A DNA stretch of 52,536 bases, taken from assembly GCA_021786105.1 (NCBI GenBank), contig JAJYNW010000005.1, forward strand, positions 1 through 52,536, written 5' to 3'. Positions 23,940 through 44,114 of this stretch are shown here, piece after piece. The notes under the pieces are model-generated. The model ran no database searches. It saw only the letters and a program-made list of their open reading frames with translations, and was not told where the DNA came from. This DNA is from a bacterium. Its GTDB lineage: Bacteria; Patescibacteriota; Microgenomatia; Daviesbacterales; UBA10151. Each line of letters starts with the position of its first letter. Position 1 is the first letter of the stretch. The translations under genes and the position numbers were made by a program.

Positions 23940-24428
23940 ATGGCCAAAATAACTAAAAACCTTAGGCCTGCTACAAGTGTATACCTTACCCAAGAGGGTC
24001 TAAAAGAGGCCCGTGAAGAGTTGGACTTTTTAACATCTACAAAAAGAGCGCAAATTTCCGAAAGAATTGAGAAGGCCCGGGAGTTCGGTGACATAGCTGA
24101 AAATGCCGAGTACGATTCAGCGCTTGAAGAACAAGCTTTAGTTGAAAATAGAATAGCTTATCTTGAGGAGGTCTTAAAAGACGCCAAGGTTATCAAAAAT
24201 GGAGTAAAAAGTGATTTCGTGGTTATCGGCTCAACAGTGACGGTCGAGATGGAAGGGGAAATTGATGAATTTACTATTGTTGGCAAAGTCGAAGCTAATC
24301 CTCTAAAAAAGAGAATTTCCAATGAATCACCTTTAGGGTCATCCCTCCTAGGAGCTAAGGTAGGCGAGACAATTGAGGTTGCTACTCCCATTGTTAGATA
24401 TAAATGTAAGGTATTAAAAATCAAATGA
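23940..24428 (+). CDS. greA: transcription elongation factor GreA
   Basis: YLTQEGLKEAREELDFLTSTKRAQISERIEKAREFGDIAENAEYDSALEEQ; C-terminal ESPLGSSLLGAKVGE. Confidence 0.95.
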   Translation: MAKITKNLRPATSVYLTQEGLKEAREELDFLTSTKRAQISERIEKAREFGDIAENAEYDSALEEQALVENRIAYLEEVLKDAKVIKNGVKSDFVVIGSTVTVEMEGEIDEFTIVGKVEANPLKKRISNESPLGSSLLGAKVGETIEVATPIVRYKCKVLKIK

Positions 24429-25780
24429 CGAAACAATTTATTAAAGAATTTAATGTAGACACCTCTTATCTTACAAAAGAAGAGTTAGAGGCTTTAAAGA
24501 AACTGGTGGAAGCTGCTGAGCTTATAGCTGATGTTTATGCGATACAGCTTCGTGATGGTTTTTATCCTAAGGGAGCTACCCGCCATGAAATTGAAAAAGC
24601 TGCTGCTAAAAATCCAGCTATTCTTTCTCCGTACACTGTGGTGGAAAGGGATAAAAGCGGTAATCTGGTAGCCATTCCTTATCATGAGAAATACAAGGAC
24701 CTACTTATACCTGTTGCAAAAAAGCTTACTGAGGCAGCTCAAATAGCAACTTCCCATAATGATTTTCGCAAGGCTTTGCTTGCTCAAGCTAAATCATTGC
24801 TTGAGGGAAATTATGATCAAGCACAAATCGCTTGGTTAAAAATTAACCCCTACATATTAGATATTGTTATCGGTCCGCTAGAGAGGGTTGAAGACAATAT
24901 GTTCTTTGTTAAAAGGTCTTATCAGGCTTGGGTAGGTATGATGGATAAAAACATTACTGATAGGATTAACGGGTTAAAGGAGATTGTCTTTTCAGCTAGG
25001 CGCCAGGTTTTACCGTCTGAGGGGGTGGATTTTATGGATAAGACTCAACTCAGAGCGGATGAAACAATCATTATGTCTGGAATGATTGCCAACTATAACT
25101 ATACCGCAACCACCCTGCCGAACGATATCGAAATACTGGAAAAATATGGGAGCGAAGGATGGGTCTTTTTGCCTTTAGTAAGAAAAAATTTTGAAGATTG
25201 TCAATATCCTCTGTTCAATCTAATATTTGCACCATTTTTCAAAAACTCTTTTTCTCAGGGACAGCTACTTAGGGGATACCAGTTATTGATTGCAATACAT
25301 GAGATAGCCCGAATCGTAGTCCGTTATCGCTTTGCCACTGATAGGTTAAAAGAGCTGTATCCAATATTCAACGAAGCGGCGATAGAGGCTTTAGCTATTA
25401 AGATGGCCGGAACAATGCTTCTTAAAGATGTTATTTCCCAAAAAGAAATGGAAGCGGTTTTGGTAATGTTTGTAACCCGGATGTTTGATGGCTATTTTGA
25501 AAAAATGGACCAAAAGAGCGCTTCTGAACCGCTGGTTCAAAGTAATGCCATCATGCTTAACTCTTTAATCTCAAAAGGGTCGCTCCAACTAACCAAGGAT
25601 GGTATGTCATGGCCAAATTTTACCAAGATGTATATTGCGGTTGCGGAATTGGCTGATGAGCTGGAAAAGATATTAGCCGAAGGAACTTATAAAGATGCCT
25701 ATAACTATATGCAAAAAAGTTCTTCTTTAGACGTTTTTCAAAAGTTTTCCAAAGCCCTAAAGAACTTACAAAGGGATTAA
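24425..25780 (+). CDS. protein related to neighbouring HExxH protein, degenerate motif (HEIAR)
   Basis: LLIAIHEIARIVVRYRF...FNEAAIEALAIKMAG; LPNDIEILEKYG shared with 25886-27280. Confidence 0.5.
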   Translation: MTKQFIKEFNVDTSYLTKEELEALKKLVEAAELIADVYAIQLRDGFYPKGATRHEIEKAAAKNPAILSPYTVVERDKSGNLVAIPYHEKYKDLLIPVAKKLTEAAQIATSHNDFRKALLAQAKSLLEGNYDQAQIAWLKINPYILDIVIGPLERVEDNMFFVKRSYQAWVGMMDKNITDRINGLKEIVFSARRQVLPSEGVDFMDKTQLRADETIIMSGMIANYNYTATTLPNDIEILEKYGSEGWVFLPLVRKNFEDCQYPLFNLIFAPFFKNSFSQGQLLRGYQLLIAIHEIARIVVRYRFATDRLKELYPIFNEAAIEALAIKMAGTMLLKDVISQKEMEAVLVMFVTRMFDGYFEKMDQKSASEPLVQSNAIMLNSLISKGSLQLTKDGMSWPNFTKMYIAVAELADELEKILAEGTYKDAYNYMQKSSSLDVFQKFSKALKNLQRD

Positions 25781-25885: not shown

Positions 25886-27280
25886 ATGAGCGAATTCATA
25901 AGTAGCCGGAGACCTATAGATGAATATCAAGTTGATACTGATAGTTTACGTCCTGGACAACGGGTGATTTTTAACGAACTTGAAGGAGTGGCACACGTTG
26001 GGGCAGATATCTATCTGGCCCAAAAATATCTCCTCCGTCCCTATAGAGGAAAATTTACCGAGCTAGTCAAGGATGACCCGTTGGCGGATCACCGTAGCAC
26101 TTTGCCCGAATCTGACGGGAGATTTGTTTATTATTGGGAACATTCAGAAATCAGACCTTTGCTACAAGATGCTCAGGCTAGGATTTTGTCTGCCTCTAGT
26201 TTAGCTCGAAGTGTTGGGGAAGCAGGTTTAGAAGATTATCTTTACGTTGTTGGAAATGAGTTGACAACTGGAAATAAACAAGCTGTTTGGGAAAAATATC
26301 TAGCACCACTACCTTCCAGAATTAATTTCCATATCCTTTTTGAGGAGACTGAAAAAGGAAAAGAGATGTGCCAGGTTTATGTGGGTGTCGTAGACGCAGA
26401 AGAAACGAGAAAAGCAAAAGCAGATATTAAGATGATCAGAGAAGCAGGAATGAGAAGAAATAGAGGGGTGTGGTTTACTCCTAGTTCCGAGATAAGTGTA
26501 GATAACGAAGGGGTGGTTGCAGGATTTCTTTCTTCAGAAGCCAGCCGTCAGCGTCGTCGGGAAGCAGGAATAGAAGAAGGAGTAGCTACAGGAGCAAGCG
26601 CGGAAAATCTCCCAAATGATCGTGAAGTAGCGGAAAAGTATGGGACGAGACTAATTTTTTATCAACATCAGTTTAAGGAAGTTGTGCAGTTCGATATTTT
26701 AAGTAAATGCGATCTGTTTTTGGCATCAGGACTCATGCCTAAACCACAAGGAGTTTTACGATTTGTTGAATTGCACGAGTTCCAACACGATGAGAGATAT
26801 GCTAACTATTTAGGTGAACTTCATACAGCATTAAGAGAATCATATGCTAATCAGGGAGGATTAGATTTAGGGGCGGAGGTTTGGGATTCAGATATGAGCG
26901 GGACAAAATTGTTAAGTGTGGTTAGCGGTGCTTTAGGATATGCGATTCGTGATTGTTATGAAGTCTTATCAGGGAAAGAAAATACTACAGATTTAGGCAG
27001 GCTAATGGAAGTTTCTAACTATATCCCAGGGAATTTAGCTTGGATTAATTTGGCGATACAAGAAGGGGCGTTTGTTGTGAGGGGGGGACTTATTACCCAT
27101 ATCAGCATTCCTAAAACTATTGACTTATCGAGACGGTTGGCGGCGGAAGAGCGGAAATTGTTACGAAATGGAACGATCCAAGATGTCCGGAACTATTTTG
27201 AGGGCAATCTACCTAAAACAGCGCTTCCTTTAGGTAAACTAGGCAGGCCGGTAAACAAAGAAGCAGGACAGGTAGCTTAG
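25886..27280 (+). CDS. putative HExxH zinc metalloprotease-like protein
   Basis: RFVELHEFQHDERYANYLGELHTALRESYANQGGLDLG (HExxH plus downstream Glu). Confidence 0.5.
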   Translation: MSEFISSRRPIDEYQVDTDSLRPGQRVIFNELEGVAHVGADIYLAQKYLLRPYRGKFTELVKDDPLADHRSTLPESDGRFVYYWEHSEIRPLLQDAQARILSASSLARSVGEAGLEDYLYVVGNELTTGNKQAVWEKYLAPLPSRINFHILFEETEKGKEMCQVYVGVVDAEETRKAKADIKMIREAGMRRNRGVWFTPSSEISVDNEGVVAGFLSSEASRQRRREAGIEEGVATGASAENLPNDREVAEKYGTRLIFYQHQFKEVVQFDILSKCDLFLASGLMPKPQGVLRFVELHEFQHDERYANYLGELHTALRESYANQGGLDLGAEVWDSDMSGTKLLSVVSGALGYAIRDCYEVLSGKENTTDLGRLMEVSNYIPGNLAWINLAIQEGAFVVRGGLITHISIPKTIDLSRRLAAEERKLLRNGTIQDVRNYFEGNLPKTALPLGKLGRPVNKEAGQVA

Positions 27281-40040: not shown

Positions 40041-41258
40041 TTATGGGATATGCCAGTATAAAGTGACGTAGCCGTTGCCGTGATCGATGGCAATGCCTTT
40101 CCCGACAGTTCCTGTTAAATAGCAGGCGGACGAGTCACGGAATTCATAGGCTGTTCCGTCCGCCACCGCTTTTATGGGCGCTCCGAAATAATCTACAATA
40201 TCCAATCCTGTATGATAGCTGCCTCCCAAAATGTTATACCAGATCGGAAACCGGGTCGAAATATCACCGTTATGGCAATAATCTGCCTGGCTGCAATCGC
40301 CGGCAGGATATTCAGCTAACGGACTGCCAAAAAATCCGGAATCAAGTAACGGTTTAGGATCAACGAGATTTTCTTTACCGATGATTGAATTATTCTCAAT
40401 ATGGGCTGGGGTCATCACCTGAAAATGGAGATGGGCTCCGGTGGTGCAGCCACTCATACCCACGGAAGCTATAATCTCACCCTTCTTCACTGGTCCGACT
40501 TTGGCTCCAAAACCTCCTAAAGCACGGGAAATAGAGTTGGCATCCGCCTGCAACTGCGCAATTAATGACTGGTATTTAGCTTCATTATTTTGGGTAACCC
40601 GTAAAAGGTCATCCTTAGCTTTTTTCTGGTCTGCAAGCTGGGCTTGGTAAGTTACCAAATCCTTCTTTAGCTTTTCCTCCTGGGCCTGTCTGGTTTCTTT
40701 ATCCGTCTTTTGGTCATGGTAGGCAGCTTTAGTTGCTTGAAGCTGGTAGAGAACTTTCTTGTCGTTCTCCTGGGCAACCTGGATATATTTCATCCTTTCC
40801 AACAGGTCGGCAAAACCGTTGGAGGAGAAGAAGAGATCTATGGGGGAATAATCCCCATATTTATATGTTTGGACTATCCGGTTAAGAAGGATTTGGGCAA
40901 TGCTGTCAACGCTGCTGGAAAGCTTGGTAATTCTTCCGGAAAGGTCAGTAATTTCCTTGTCTAATTTTGCAATTTGGGCATTGGCTTCATCCATCTTTAG
41001 TTGGGTGAATTTGGTTTGGGCATCAATGTAATTGAGTTGGGATTTAAGGGTTTTTTCCTTACTTTGTTCACCATTTAATAACTGCTGACATTGGGCCGTT
41101 AATCCGGCAATACACGCATATCTGTTGCCGGGGTCAGGATCTATGCATTGTGAACTATCTCCGCAGGAAACTTGGGCGAAGGCTGGATTAGCACTAAAGA
41201 AGGCGGTTAAAAGCAGAGGAATTATTAAGAGATGACGAATTTTAGGGGAGACTACCAT
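40041..41258 (-). CDS. secreted coiled-coil peptidoglycan hydrolase (EnvC/PcsB-like) with M23/LytM motifs in permuted order
   Basis: Signal peptide, coiled coil, then GPVKKGEIIASVGMSGCTTGAHLHFQV followed by STRFPIWYN...YHTGLDIVDYFGAPIKAVADG...GIAIDHGNGYVTLYWHIP-stop. Confidence 0.88.
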   Translation of the reverse strand: MVVSPKIRHLLIIPLLLTAFFSANPAFAQVSCGDSSQCIDPDPGNRYACIAGLTAQCQQLLNGEQSKEKTLKSQLNYIDAQTKFTQLKMDEANAQIAKLDKEITDLSGRITKLSSSVDSIAQILLNRIVQTYKYGDYSPIDLFFSSNGFADLLERMKYIQVAQENDKKVLYQLQATKAAYHDQKTDKETRQAQEEKLKKDLVTYQAQLADQKKAKDDLLRVTQNNEAKYQSLIAQLQADANSISRALGGFGAKVGPVKKGEIIASVGMSGCTTGAHLHFQVMTPAHIENNSIIGKENLVDPKPLLDSGFFGSPLAEYPAGDCSQADYCHNGDISTRFPIWYNILGGSYHTGLDIVDYFGAPIKAVADGTAYEFRDSSACYLTGTVGKGIAIDHGNGYVTLYWHIP

Positions 41259-41261
41259 GTC

Positions 41262-42491
41262 TTAATAAGTAATGATTTCAGTAATGTAGTTTCCGGAATA
41301 GTTACTCTTAAAGGAAACGTTAGGACCTTTCCAAGGATCAAGTAAATTATAATCATCACCATTTTTGGAGGTGACAACTACAAAATGGAATGGTTGGGCA
41401 TAAGTACTTGAAGTATACCCAATTCCCACAATTGCCCATTTGCCGGCGCTTAAGGCGTTATCCAGTGTTGAAGTGTTGGTTGTCCGGGAGGGGGAATTAA
41501 AGCCTAAAGAGGTTAGGGCAGACCACAAAAAGTCTCCGTCAAAGAAATAGGAATCGTTGCTGCCGATAGTGGCTGGGGTTTGGGAATTGCCGCGGTGGGT
41601 TAAAACCATAGCTACCGAAGAAACCAGACAACCGGCTAGACCAATAGAGTACCGGCTGTTGCCGATAGCCATATTTCCCCATCGGACATCACGTTGGGAA
41701 AAATAACCTGCCGGCCAAGAGGGATCGGCGTTGATTAAGGTTAAGCCTCCCTGACTCTGAACGAATGACCGGAAGGCAGCCAGCTGGGCTTCTGCTTGGG
41801 CAATCAATTTTTCGTAATTAGACTCATCACCCTGGGTTGCTGCCAATAACTGTTGTTTAGCCTTTTTCTGGTCAGCCAGTTGGGTTTGGTATACCACCAA
41901 ATCTTTCTTTAGCTTTTCCTCCTGGGCCTGTCTTGTTTCCTTGTCCGTTTTTTGGTCATGGTAGGCAGCTTTGGTGGCCTGAAGCTGGTATAACACTTTT
42001 TTATCATTGGCTTGGGCAACCTGGATATACTTCATTCTTTCCAACAGGTCGGCAAAACCATGGGAAGAAAAGATTAAATCTAAGATAGAGGGCTCTCCTT
42101 GCTTGTATGTCTGGGTGATCCGGACCAGCAGTAGTTCGGAGATGCTGTCCACATTGGCAGAGAGCTTGGTAATTCTTCCGGAAAGATCGGTTATTTCTGT
42201 TTCCAGTTTGGTAATCTGATAATTTGTATCGTCGATTTTGGCCTGAGTCAATCTGGTTTGCGCATCGATATAATCAAGCTGGGATTTAAGGGTTTTTTCC
42301 TGGCTTTTGGCTGCACTTAATCGGGATTCACAGTCATCTTTTACTTGTTGGTAACAGCTATGAGGGTCGGAGTCGCTTGCGCAACTATCCCCATCTCCGC
42401 AACTTTTAGCCAATGCAGAGGTTGGGGTAAAAATGAGAAGCATTAAAAAAGAGGTCACAACAACCAAGACAGAAATTCTCATACATGGCAT
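41262..42491 (-). CDS. secreted coiled-coil protein with C39-like (Peptidase_C39_2) cysteine peptidase domain
   Basis: Coiled coil near-identical to 40041-41258; YFSQRDVRWGNMAIG...GLAGCLVSSVAMVLTHRG...FHFVVVTSKNGDDYNLLDP. Confidence 0.85.
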   Translation of the reverse strand: MPCMRISVLVVVTSFLMLLIFTPTSALAKSCGDGDSCASDSDPHSCYQQVKDDCESRLSAAKSQEKTLKSQLDYIDAQTRLTQAKIDDTNYQITKLETEITDLSGRITKLSANVDSISELLLVRITQTYKQGEPSILDLIFSSHGFADLLERMKYIQVAQANDKKVLYQLQATKAAYHDQKTDKETRQAQEEKLKKDLVVYQTQLADQKKAKQQLLAATQGDESNYEKLIAQAEAQLAAFRSFVQSQGGLTLINADPSWPAGYFSQRDVRWGNMAIGNSRYSIGLAGCLVSSVAMVLTHRGNSQTPATIGSNDSYFFDGDFLWSALTSLGFNSPSRTTNTSTLDNALSAGKWAIVGIGYTSSTYAQPFHFVVVTSKNGDDYNLLDPWKGPNVSFKSNYSGNYITEIITY

Positions 42492-43366
42492 TAAATTCTC
42501 AGGTAGCGGCGAACAGCCACAAAGGCTCCGACTCCGCCCACAAGTATTGCTACAACTACTTCGACGCCCAGAAGTCCTAGTAATAATACCGGAGAGAGTG
42601 CAAAGAATTGTCCAGCGGCTTCTCCTAAATTATTCCGCAAGACCGGTTCGAAATACCATAAAACTGCAAATGAGGTAATCCATCCTAAAAAGGCCCCAAT
42701 TAAGGCATAAACCACACCTTCCGTAATATAGGGAATACGGATAAACCAGGTGGAGGCGCCTAGAAGTTTCATGATTTCAATCTCGCTTCTTTTGATCCTG
42801 ATCTTAAAACCCACCACCATAACAATGATTAGAGTAGAGAAGGTAATTAAAAATCCCACAACTGCGCTACCGACAACCCTGATTAATCTTGTTGCTGATA
42901 CTAAAGAAGAGACGACATCTTCCGGAAAGACAACCTCCTCCACCACCGGTTCTTTCTTGACGATTTCGGCTACAGGTTTTAGATCCTCTGGGGTTTGGGT
43001 GGAAATCTCCAGGGAAGCAGGTAAGATATTGGCAGTTACCAATTCGAGCAACATGGGGTTATTTTTATTGCGTTCCCTATATATTTGCAAAGCATCATCT
43101 TTAGAAACAAATTTTAATTTAGTGACTTTACCGGTTTGGTTTAATGCGCCTTCGATTGCGTTTACATCTTGGTCAGTGGTACCATCTTTAAAGAAAGCAA
43201 TTGCCTGGGGTTTGCTCTCATAATACCTGAGGATTTGCTGGGAACAGATGGCCAAAAGTAAAAATCCGGAAAGAGTTAAGAAAGTTAAGAACATCACCAT
43301 GGAAGCAGCGAGTGCCTGGTAAGGTGTTCTCCTAATATTCTTTTTTACTGTGTTAAATAAATTCAT
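42491..43366 (-). CDS. ftsX: cell division protein FtsX
   Basis: Four-TM FtsX pattern: RRTPYQALAASMVMFLTF; IRIKRSEIEIMKLLGASTWFIRIPYITEG; ftsE upstream. Confidence 0.93.
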   Translation of the reverse strand: MNLFNTVKKNIRRTPYQALAASMVMFLTFLTLSGFLLLAICSQQILRYYESKPQAIAFFKDGTTDQDVNAIEGALNQTGKVTKLKFVSKDDALQIYRERNKNNPMLLELVTANILPASLEISTQTPEDLKPVAEIVKKEPVVEEVVFPEDVVSSLVSATRLIRVVGSAVVGFLITFSTLIIVMVVGFKIRIKRSEIEIMKLLGASTWFIRIPYITEGVVYALIGAFLGWITSFAVLWYFEPVLRNNLGEAAGQFFALSPVLLLGLLGVEVVVAILVGGVGAFVAVRRYLRI

Positions 43367-43407: not shown

Positions 43408-43434
43408 TTGAAAATAGTTTACAACTATTTTCAA
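43408..43434. promoter_or_regulatory. perfect 12-bp hairpin overlapping ftsE stop
   Basis: TTGAAAATAGTT-TAC-AACTATTTTCAA. Confidence 0.7.
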
Positions 43435-44114
43435 TGAAACTCGTATTTTCCTTCTGTTTTGTCTTTGGTTACTTTGCCGTTTTTAATGGCAATGACCCGG
43501 CGTTTTTGCATATCAACAATTTCTTTATTGTGGGTGGCCATGACTACAGTTGTTCCCCATGAGTTGATCTCATTTAAAAGTTGCAGCACGGACCAGGATG
43601 TTTGTGGATCCAAGTTTCCAGTTGGTTCATCAGCAATTAATACTTTGGGTTTGCCGATAATTGCCCGGGCAATAGCTACCCGTTGGGCTTCGCCTCCGGA
43701 AAGCTGGCGGGGAAAAAGGTTCCGCCTGTCCCAGATTTCAAAAAGTTTAAGGGTCCGCTCAACTTCTTTATGAATCTCAGCTTCCGGGGTGTTTCTGACC
43801 TGTAAAGCCAAGGCCACATTTTCAAAAACAGTTTTGTCATCCAATAGTTTATTGTCCTGAAAGACAAAACCAATTTTTCTCCGGTACTCGGGAATGTCCT
43901 GCGGCTTTATTTTGGTGATATCAACATCATCTAGGAGGATTTTGCCTGAATTGGGCAGGTATTCCCTGGTTAAAAGCCTGAGTAAAGTAGATTTCCCGGC
44001 ACCCGAAGGTCCAACAACAAAAACAAATTCCCCGTTTTTAATCTCTAGATTAATATCCTCAAGGGCAGTAATTGATGAGCTAAATTTTTTAGAGACATTT
44101 TGAAAAGAGATCAT
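43431..44114 (-). CDS. ftsE: cell division ATP-binding protein FtsE
   Basis: MISFQNVSKKFSSSITALEDINLEIKNGEFVFVVGPSGAGKSTLLRLL; QLSGGEAQRVAIARAI; LIADEPTGNLDPQTS. Confidence 0.96.
   Translation of the reverse strand: MISFQNVSKKFSSSITALEDINLEIKNGEFVFVVGPSGAGKSTLLRLLTREYLPNSGKILLDDVDITKIKPQDIPEYRRKIGFVFQDNKLLDDKTVFENVALALQVRNTPEAEIHKEVERTLKLFEIWDRRNLFPRQLSGGEAQRVAIARAIIGKPKVLIADEPTGNLDPQTSWSVLQLLNEINSWGTTVVMATHNKEIVDMQKRRVIAIKNGKVTKDKTEGKYEFH

Follow-up and report, generated by a model that had tools for sequence, protein, structure and literature searches.

Two coiled-coil proteins with C39-like and circularly permuted M23 heads as putative effectors of one FtsEX in a Patescibacteria genome

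The ftsEX locus and its two coiled-coil proteins

The DNA analyzed here, a stretch of 52,536 nucleotides that we refer to as the window, comes from the 26-contig draft genome of an uncultured Daviesbacteria-like bacterium. Its minus strand carries, in this order, ftsE (43431..44114), ftsX (42491..43366) and, directly behind them, two open reading frames (ORFs) encoding candidate effectors, which we call B (41262..42491) and A (40041..41258). The ftsE product matched TIGR02673 with 279.6 bits (cut-off 264.85), and the ftsX product, which includes an extracellular domain, matched both FtsX_ECD (61.9 bits) and the FtsX permease family (45.8 bits) above cut-off. B, of 409 residues, combines a signal-like N-terminus with a PcsB/EnvC-type coiled coil and a C39_2-like head; A, of 405 residues, has a signal-like N-terminus, the same coiled coil as B, and a permuted M23 head. 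Both N-termini were judged by eye to be hydrophobic and signal-like. The ftsX stop and the B start overlap (TAATG), and 3 nt separate the stop of B from the ATG of A. In a profile search of the genome, the only FtsX_ECD match above cut-off was the ftsX at 42491-43366; a candidate second FtsX was rejected as a partial match of 20.6 bits, below cut-off. A and B are the sole proteins of their kind in this draft genome. A preliminary description of this DNA had reported tandem coiled-coil proteins with unrelated M23 and C39 heads, and the two adjacent ORFs behind ftsEX confirm that report.

Three further features of the window were observed. Four cysteines, which might form disulfides, follow right after the signal-like stretch in both A and B, as they do in the C39 protein of genome G038. 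A short inverted repeat, GAAAATAGTTGTAAACTATTTTC, lies between ftsE and ftsX at about 43410-43432, beginning at the ftsE stop. Elsewhere, 24425-25780 and 25886-27280 encode adjacent proteins of about 450-460 residues that seem by eye to be related (LPND..EKYG).

Both coils are of the PcsB/EnvC/RipC type, by profile and by fold. Against the CC_PcsB profile (cut-off 27), B scored 28.1 bits, over the cut-off, and A 24.9 bits, just under it; the coiled coil also matched an EnvC profile with an E value of 1.8e-6. The top Foldseek matches of the B model were PcsB (E 7e-4), EnvC, the Vibrio cholerae FtsEX/EnvC complex and the Mycobacterium tuberculosis FtsEX/RipC complex. In the AlphaFold prediction of B, pLDDT was near 90 over most of the coil and weaker in the C39 part, for which the alignment held only four C39 sequences. 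The likeness of the two coils extends to the DNA, as previously noted, in the form of a 300-nt direct repeat (40615-40914 and 41857-42156) that is 79% identical. At the protein level, residue-wise comparison located a tract in which 64 of 67 residues are identical, comprising A148-214 (40617..40817, minus strand) and B145-211 (41859..42059, minus strand). Identity elsewhere is 42/60 over A61-120, 9/15 over A121-135, 6/12 over A136-147 and 12/26 over A215-240, beyond which A and B are unrelated. Thus, the near-identity first ascribed to the coiled coil holds for this tract, which is narrower than the whole coil.

The catalytic heads and their distribution

The head of B (residues 246-409; 41265..41756, minus strand) resembles C39-like cysteine peptidases. 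B alone matched Peptidase_C39_2 weakly, with 12.9 bits against a cut-off of 24 (E 0.027/0.17), but 19 of 21 heads related to B matched this profile, the best with an E value of 4e-14. The glutamine, cysteine, histidine and aspartate of the papain-like active site (Q266, C288, H369, D385) are all present in B and are invariant across the 21 related heads. B has the Q-C-H-D residues in common with Peptidase_C39_2, a C39-like family of papain fold, while itself falling under the Pfam cut-off. A literature search, which did not take in most subscription journals, found no paper on a C39_2-like domain as the head of an FtsEX effector.

The head of A matched Pfam Peptidase_M23 with 57.6 bits (cut-off 28.7) in two stretches that occur in reversed order. 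As located by phmmer and Pfam, residues 246-290 (40389..40523, minus strand) correspond to the C-terminal half of M23, placed first (GAHLHFQV, with H276 and H278), and residues 336-404 (40047..40253, minus strand) to the N-terminal half, placed last (HTGLD, with H349 and D353, and YWHI, with H403). The HxH half, at A250-282, thus lies ahead of the HxxxD half, at A336-404, the reverse of the usual M23 order, and the protein ends 2 residues past H403. The M23 members of the PDB among the alignments listed likewise matched A in two swapped stretches. When the sequence was de-permuted, a single Pfam match resulted, covering profile positions 2-89 of 96 with 68.0 bits, compared to two stretches and 61.2 bits for the native order. 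Because the halves are reversed and a single match is restored on de-permuting, we describe A as a circularly permuted relative of M23, as had been proposed, and the description holds across the class. A retains the motif halves and catalytic residues of peptidase family M23 (LytM/lysostaphin type), from which it differs in half order. H276, H278, H349, D353 and H403 are invariant across 24 family members of A, and the head is, as judged from its sequence, catalytically complete; the degenerate, noncatalytic LytM head that typifies EnvC-type amidase activators is absent from A. AlphaFold modeled the permuted domain alone with a pLDDT of 89.4 and a pTM of 0.87. Foldseek, which follows chain order, returned no significant match for this domain (best E 0.73). 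The same literature search, again short of most subscription journals, yielded no description of a permuted M23. As both active sites are intact, A and B may each be the hydrolase itself.

To place these heads among relatives, contigs were scanned; with A alone as the query the scan found 0 loci, and with an alignment as the query it found 80. Among 92 ftsEX loci of the window's class, the protein behind ftsX has a permuted M23 head in 73 and a C39 head in 17, both kinds occur in 1 (the window), and 1 is cut off. By motif, all M23-type effectors of the class with both motifs have HxH first, and none at ftsEX has an ordinary-order M23 head. C39 effectors are present in only 4 of the 45 genomes of the window's family. 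Of 79 loci sampled outside the class, 33 have no such gene within 3 kb; the head types found at these sampled loci are permuted M23, CHAP, C39 and ordinary M23, with CHAP confirmed by Pfam in five. HxH likewise comes first in proteins from Dojkabacteria and WWE3. Mapping the head types onto an FtsX tree built from 133 loci requires no fewer than 26 changes, of which 11 or more fall inside the class. A tree test did not reject a single origin of the permutation (p-AU 0.56). Outside Patescibacteria, 16 of 20 contig-search loci show the ordinary order by motif, 4 are without both motifs, and 0 are permuted. Phages or plasmids were considered as carriers of a permuted M23 and rejected, the two matches that span most of the query both being of ordinary order.

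In other families, too, ftsX is repeatedly followed by tandem sets of two to three effectors that differ in their heads. The window's C39-plus-permuted-M23 pair, which the preliminary description proposed to look for beside ftsEX in relatives, is found at no other of the 92 class loci but does occur in another class, where locus L260 has the same order, C39 and then permuted M23.

Individual loci show additional arrangements. Three coiled-coil effector genes stand consecutively behind ftsX in L347:2-4339 (CHAP, ordinary M23 and C39 heads) and again in L346:1405-5500 (CHAP, C39, and a third cut by the fragment end). In L349, L350 and L352, one operon comprises ftsX and, behind it, two M23 effectors, the first permuted and the second in ordinary order. 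The M23-type effector behind ftsX at L059:1458-2504 (genome G012) has an open frame from which the HxH half is gone and is probably a degenerate head. A contig-end fragment, L042:6110-6919, encodes a second permuted-M23 effector in genome G035 besides that of L033 behind ftsX, either a second copy or a strain variant. Near ftsX, L290:3299-3922 encodes a permuted M23 domain in a 208-residue protein that has no coiled coil. The HxH-first heads of the Dojkabacteria loci L189 and L190 have a seemingly altered His-to-Asp spacing (HQGMAID and HQGMSVD). Lastly, a single ORF at L051:2456-3880 matches FtsE plus FtsX, reflecting a fusion or an assembly gap, and ftsX is spread over two ORFs at L130:1281-2029 (genome G086) by a frameshift or sequencing error.

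Ancestry of the coils and the mapped FtsX-docking segment

In a DNA tree of A61-214, A and B are sisters with support of 100/98. From about A215 onward their affinities differ, B being nearest to the C39 protein of G038 (76% amino acid identity in the last part) and A nearest to M23 proteins such as that of G035. Within the tract A148-214, the A-B comparison gave a pN of 0.034, a pS of 0.57 and a dS of about 1.1; outside the tract, pS was 0.72-0.93. In the tract, comparisons of A or B with coils from other genomes gave pN values of 0.11-0.25; just beyond it, over A121-147, the A-B pN was 0.29. The sister coils, the differing C-terminal affinities and this pN/pS pattern together indicate that the pair is, by sequence, a mosaic of sister coils and C-termini from two lineages, with one unusually alike but not recent stretch. 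A permutation test for conversion was significant on all polymorphic sites (P = 1e-4) and not on third positions alone (P = 0.17), so that the gene conversion originally suggested draws support from the former and not from the latter. We consider an older gene conversion of A148-214 likely, though not proven. The claim that the duplication or conversion was recent is not supported: tract synonymous divergence, although below that of the flanks, is far from recent, and on this ground we rejected a recent conversion. A211-240, which follows the coil and resembles the EnvC restraining arm, might travel with the head; within the class we rejected this as a general rule, as same-head and different-head pairs were alike in the two lower identity bins and differed slightly only in the closest bin.

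In EnvC, residues 114-128 and 141-160 contact FtsX (PMC7668044). Profile alignment to EnvC maps site 1 to A121-135 (40854..40898) and B118-132 (42096..42140), and site 2 to A148-167 (40758..40817) and B145-164 (42000..42059), all on the minus strand. The near-identical tract of A and B covers site 2 and not site 1, which is 60% identical, and extends 47 residues past site 2. In the window pair, the mapped docking segment (34/47 identical) shows no excess over the rest of the coil (99/133; p = 0.69).

The same comparison of segment A121-167 with the rest of the coil was made for 16 within-genome adjacent pairs from 14 loci in nine families, some of them shared. Over all 16 pairs, mean identity was 0.64 in the docking segment compared to 0.37 in the rest. 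The corresponding values for partner-swapped pairs were 0.38 and 0.26, and for between-genome pairs with a rest identity of 0.2-0.35 the docking segment averaged 0.27. Fisher tests of single pairs gave values below 0.05 in 14 of the 16 adjacent pairs (14 of 15 without the window), the exceptions being the window (0.69) and L351 (0.12). As alignment columns were treated as independent and some loci were chosen on a hint of two genes, the size of this effect needs an unselected set. Six unlinked within-genome pairs averaged 0.59 in the docking segment and 0.58 in the rest; one of these, in G654, showed a docking excess, and those in G029, G016, G630, G634 and G636 showed no significant one. Each of the 19 genomes with effector pairs has one FtsX, and the five pairs that have no significant excess despite this suggest that some second effectors may bypass FtsX or dock differently. 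The likeness of docking segments in adjacent pairs fits a common FtsX partner, with local conversion as the alternative. The earlier attribution of the coil likeness to a common FtsX thus finds support in the 14 of 15 adjacent pairs elsewhere and none in the window pair.

A putative common FtsX partner and known systems

We think it probable that A and B are alternative effectors of one FtsEX, with coils that dock to FtsX, heads that cut the wall, and a mosaic history that includes an older conversion. In the solved EnvC, PcsB and RipC systems, the coil lies between the FtsX extracellular domains, which are moved by ATP use in FtsE, and a self-inhibited head is freed (PMC7668044, PMC11627006). 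By analogy, FtsE and FtsX would form an ATP-driven lever, each effector would insert its coiled-coil hairpin between the paired extracellular domains of FtsX, and movement of the lever would release the head of that effector for peptidoglycan cleavage where the cell divides, in B by a C39-type cysteine peptidase and in A by a circularly permuted M23 metallopeptidase. Since a single EnvC hairpin fills both FtsX domains of its complex, competition between A and B is expected, the two alternating on the same FtsX pair, and FtsEX-A and FtsEX-B would therefore coexist in a cell. The coils stem from one coil of this lineage; the end of B, from about B212, groups with a C39 effector like that of G038; and an older gene conversion probably rehomogenized A148-214. 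From these comparisons we infer the conversion, as well as docking to FtsX, competition between the effectors, their activation and the cutting of the wall. Comparison lends good support to one FtsEX serving two effectors: the original proposal of two interchangeable effectors agrees with the coil type, the tight operon, the one FtsX and the arrays elsewhere, and finds no echo in the docking segment of the window pair.

The sisterhood of the two coils, the far-diverged synonymous sites of the tract and the lack of docking excess in the window would all be expected if the likeness were simply a trace of ancestry, left by tandem duplication, replacement of one C-terminus and strong general constraint on the coil, with neither conversion nor docking-driven likeness. 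We consider this a serious possibility that falls somewhat short of an even chance, as the pN of the tract is well below that to coils of other genomes and that of A121-147, and the test on polymorphic sites argues for conversion. Only one of the two proteins might instead be an FtsEX effector, the other having kept or gained the coil and acting separately, for example on a host or neighbor wall. Most relatives do have a single effector, and the five unlinked pairs that show no significant docking excess are in keeping with such a division. We nevertheless regard it as unlikely, given that A and B both sit translationally tight behind ftsX, that relatives have one or the other head type alone at this place (73 and 17 loci), and that docking segments are alike in adjacent arrays elsewhere.

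The nearest characterized M23-headed partner of FtsEX is EnvC (PMC7668044), and the head of A could accordingly, instead of being an enzyme, switch on another hydrolase in the way that the LytM domain of EnvC activates amidases. The five catalytic positions are invariant in the 24 members, compared to an EnvC LytM domain that has no catalytic residues (PMC7668044), and among the members seen the HxH motif is lost in one only (L059), which makes this quite improbable. We give hardly any credence to the tandem arrangement being an assembly artefact: the genome is a draft in 26 contigs and its named relatives are metagenome bins, but the reading frames are clean and meet either by overlap or at a distance of 3 nt, identity between the repeat copies is no more than 79%, and the order recurs in L260, which belongs to another class.

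Returning to A and B as alternative effectors, the wider comparison suggests that, in this phylum, sets of exchangeable wall-cutting enzymes are commonly under the control of one FtsEX. We lean, by a little, toward a broader picture in which the single FtsEX of Patescibacteria is a hub for between one and three interchangeable wall enzymes, whose heads are of the CHAP, C39, ordinary M23 or permuted M23 type and whose docking segment is common within each genome, and in which the permuted M23 is catalytically competent and maybe of one origin in the phylum. FtsEX would become a switchboard where arrays of partners with a common docking segment and different heads accompany one FtsX, and the resemblance of coils within a genome provides a natural experiment on FtsX-binding residues. 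The permuted M23 head, with its reversed halves and a C-terminus 2 residues past the catalytic His, offers a clean case for protein-evolution and enzyme studies and a marker for division in little-known, reduced bacteria. In the literature covered, to the exclusion of most subscription journals, we found no description of a multi-effector FtsEX or of FtsEX partners in this phylum; to our knowledge, the well-studied cases have one coiled-coil partner per FtsEX.

PcsB of Streptococcus pneumoniae, an FtsEX-driven CHAP hydrolase and the best fold match of B, has the same build of a secreted coiled coil, of the CC_PcsB family, with a C-terminal catalytic head. It is a single effector with a CHAP head, whereas the tandem genes of the window encode a C39 head and a permuted M23 head; other ftsEX loci of the phylum do include CHAP heads. 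In Bacillus subtilis, the CwlO head is NlpC/P60. CwlO and RipC of M. tuberculosis are both coiled-coil proteins driven by FtsEX and hydrolases in their own right, and the RipC head is also NlpC/P60 (PMC11627006). The RipC complex is among the fold matches of B, but the window heads are M23 and C39, not NlpC/P60. EnvC of Escherichia coli, which acts in the FtsEX-EnvC-AmiA/B system, is alike in its coiled-coil hairpin with two FtsX sites and in its M23-family head. In the EnvC head, however, the halves stand in the usual order and the catalytic residues are missing, whereas that of A is permuted and, by sequence, catalytically complete.
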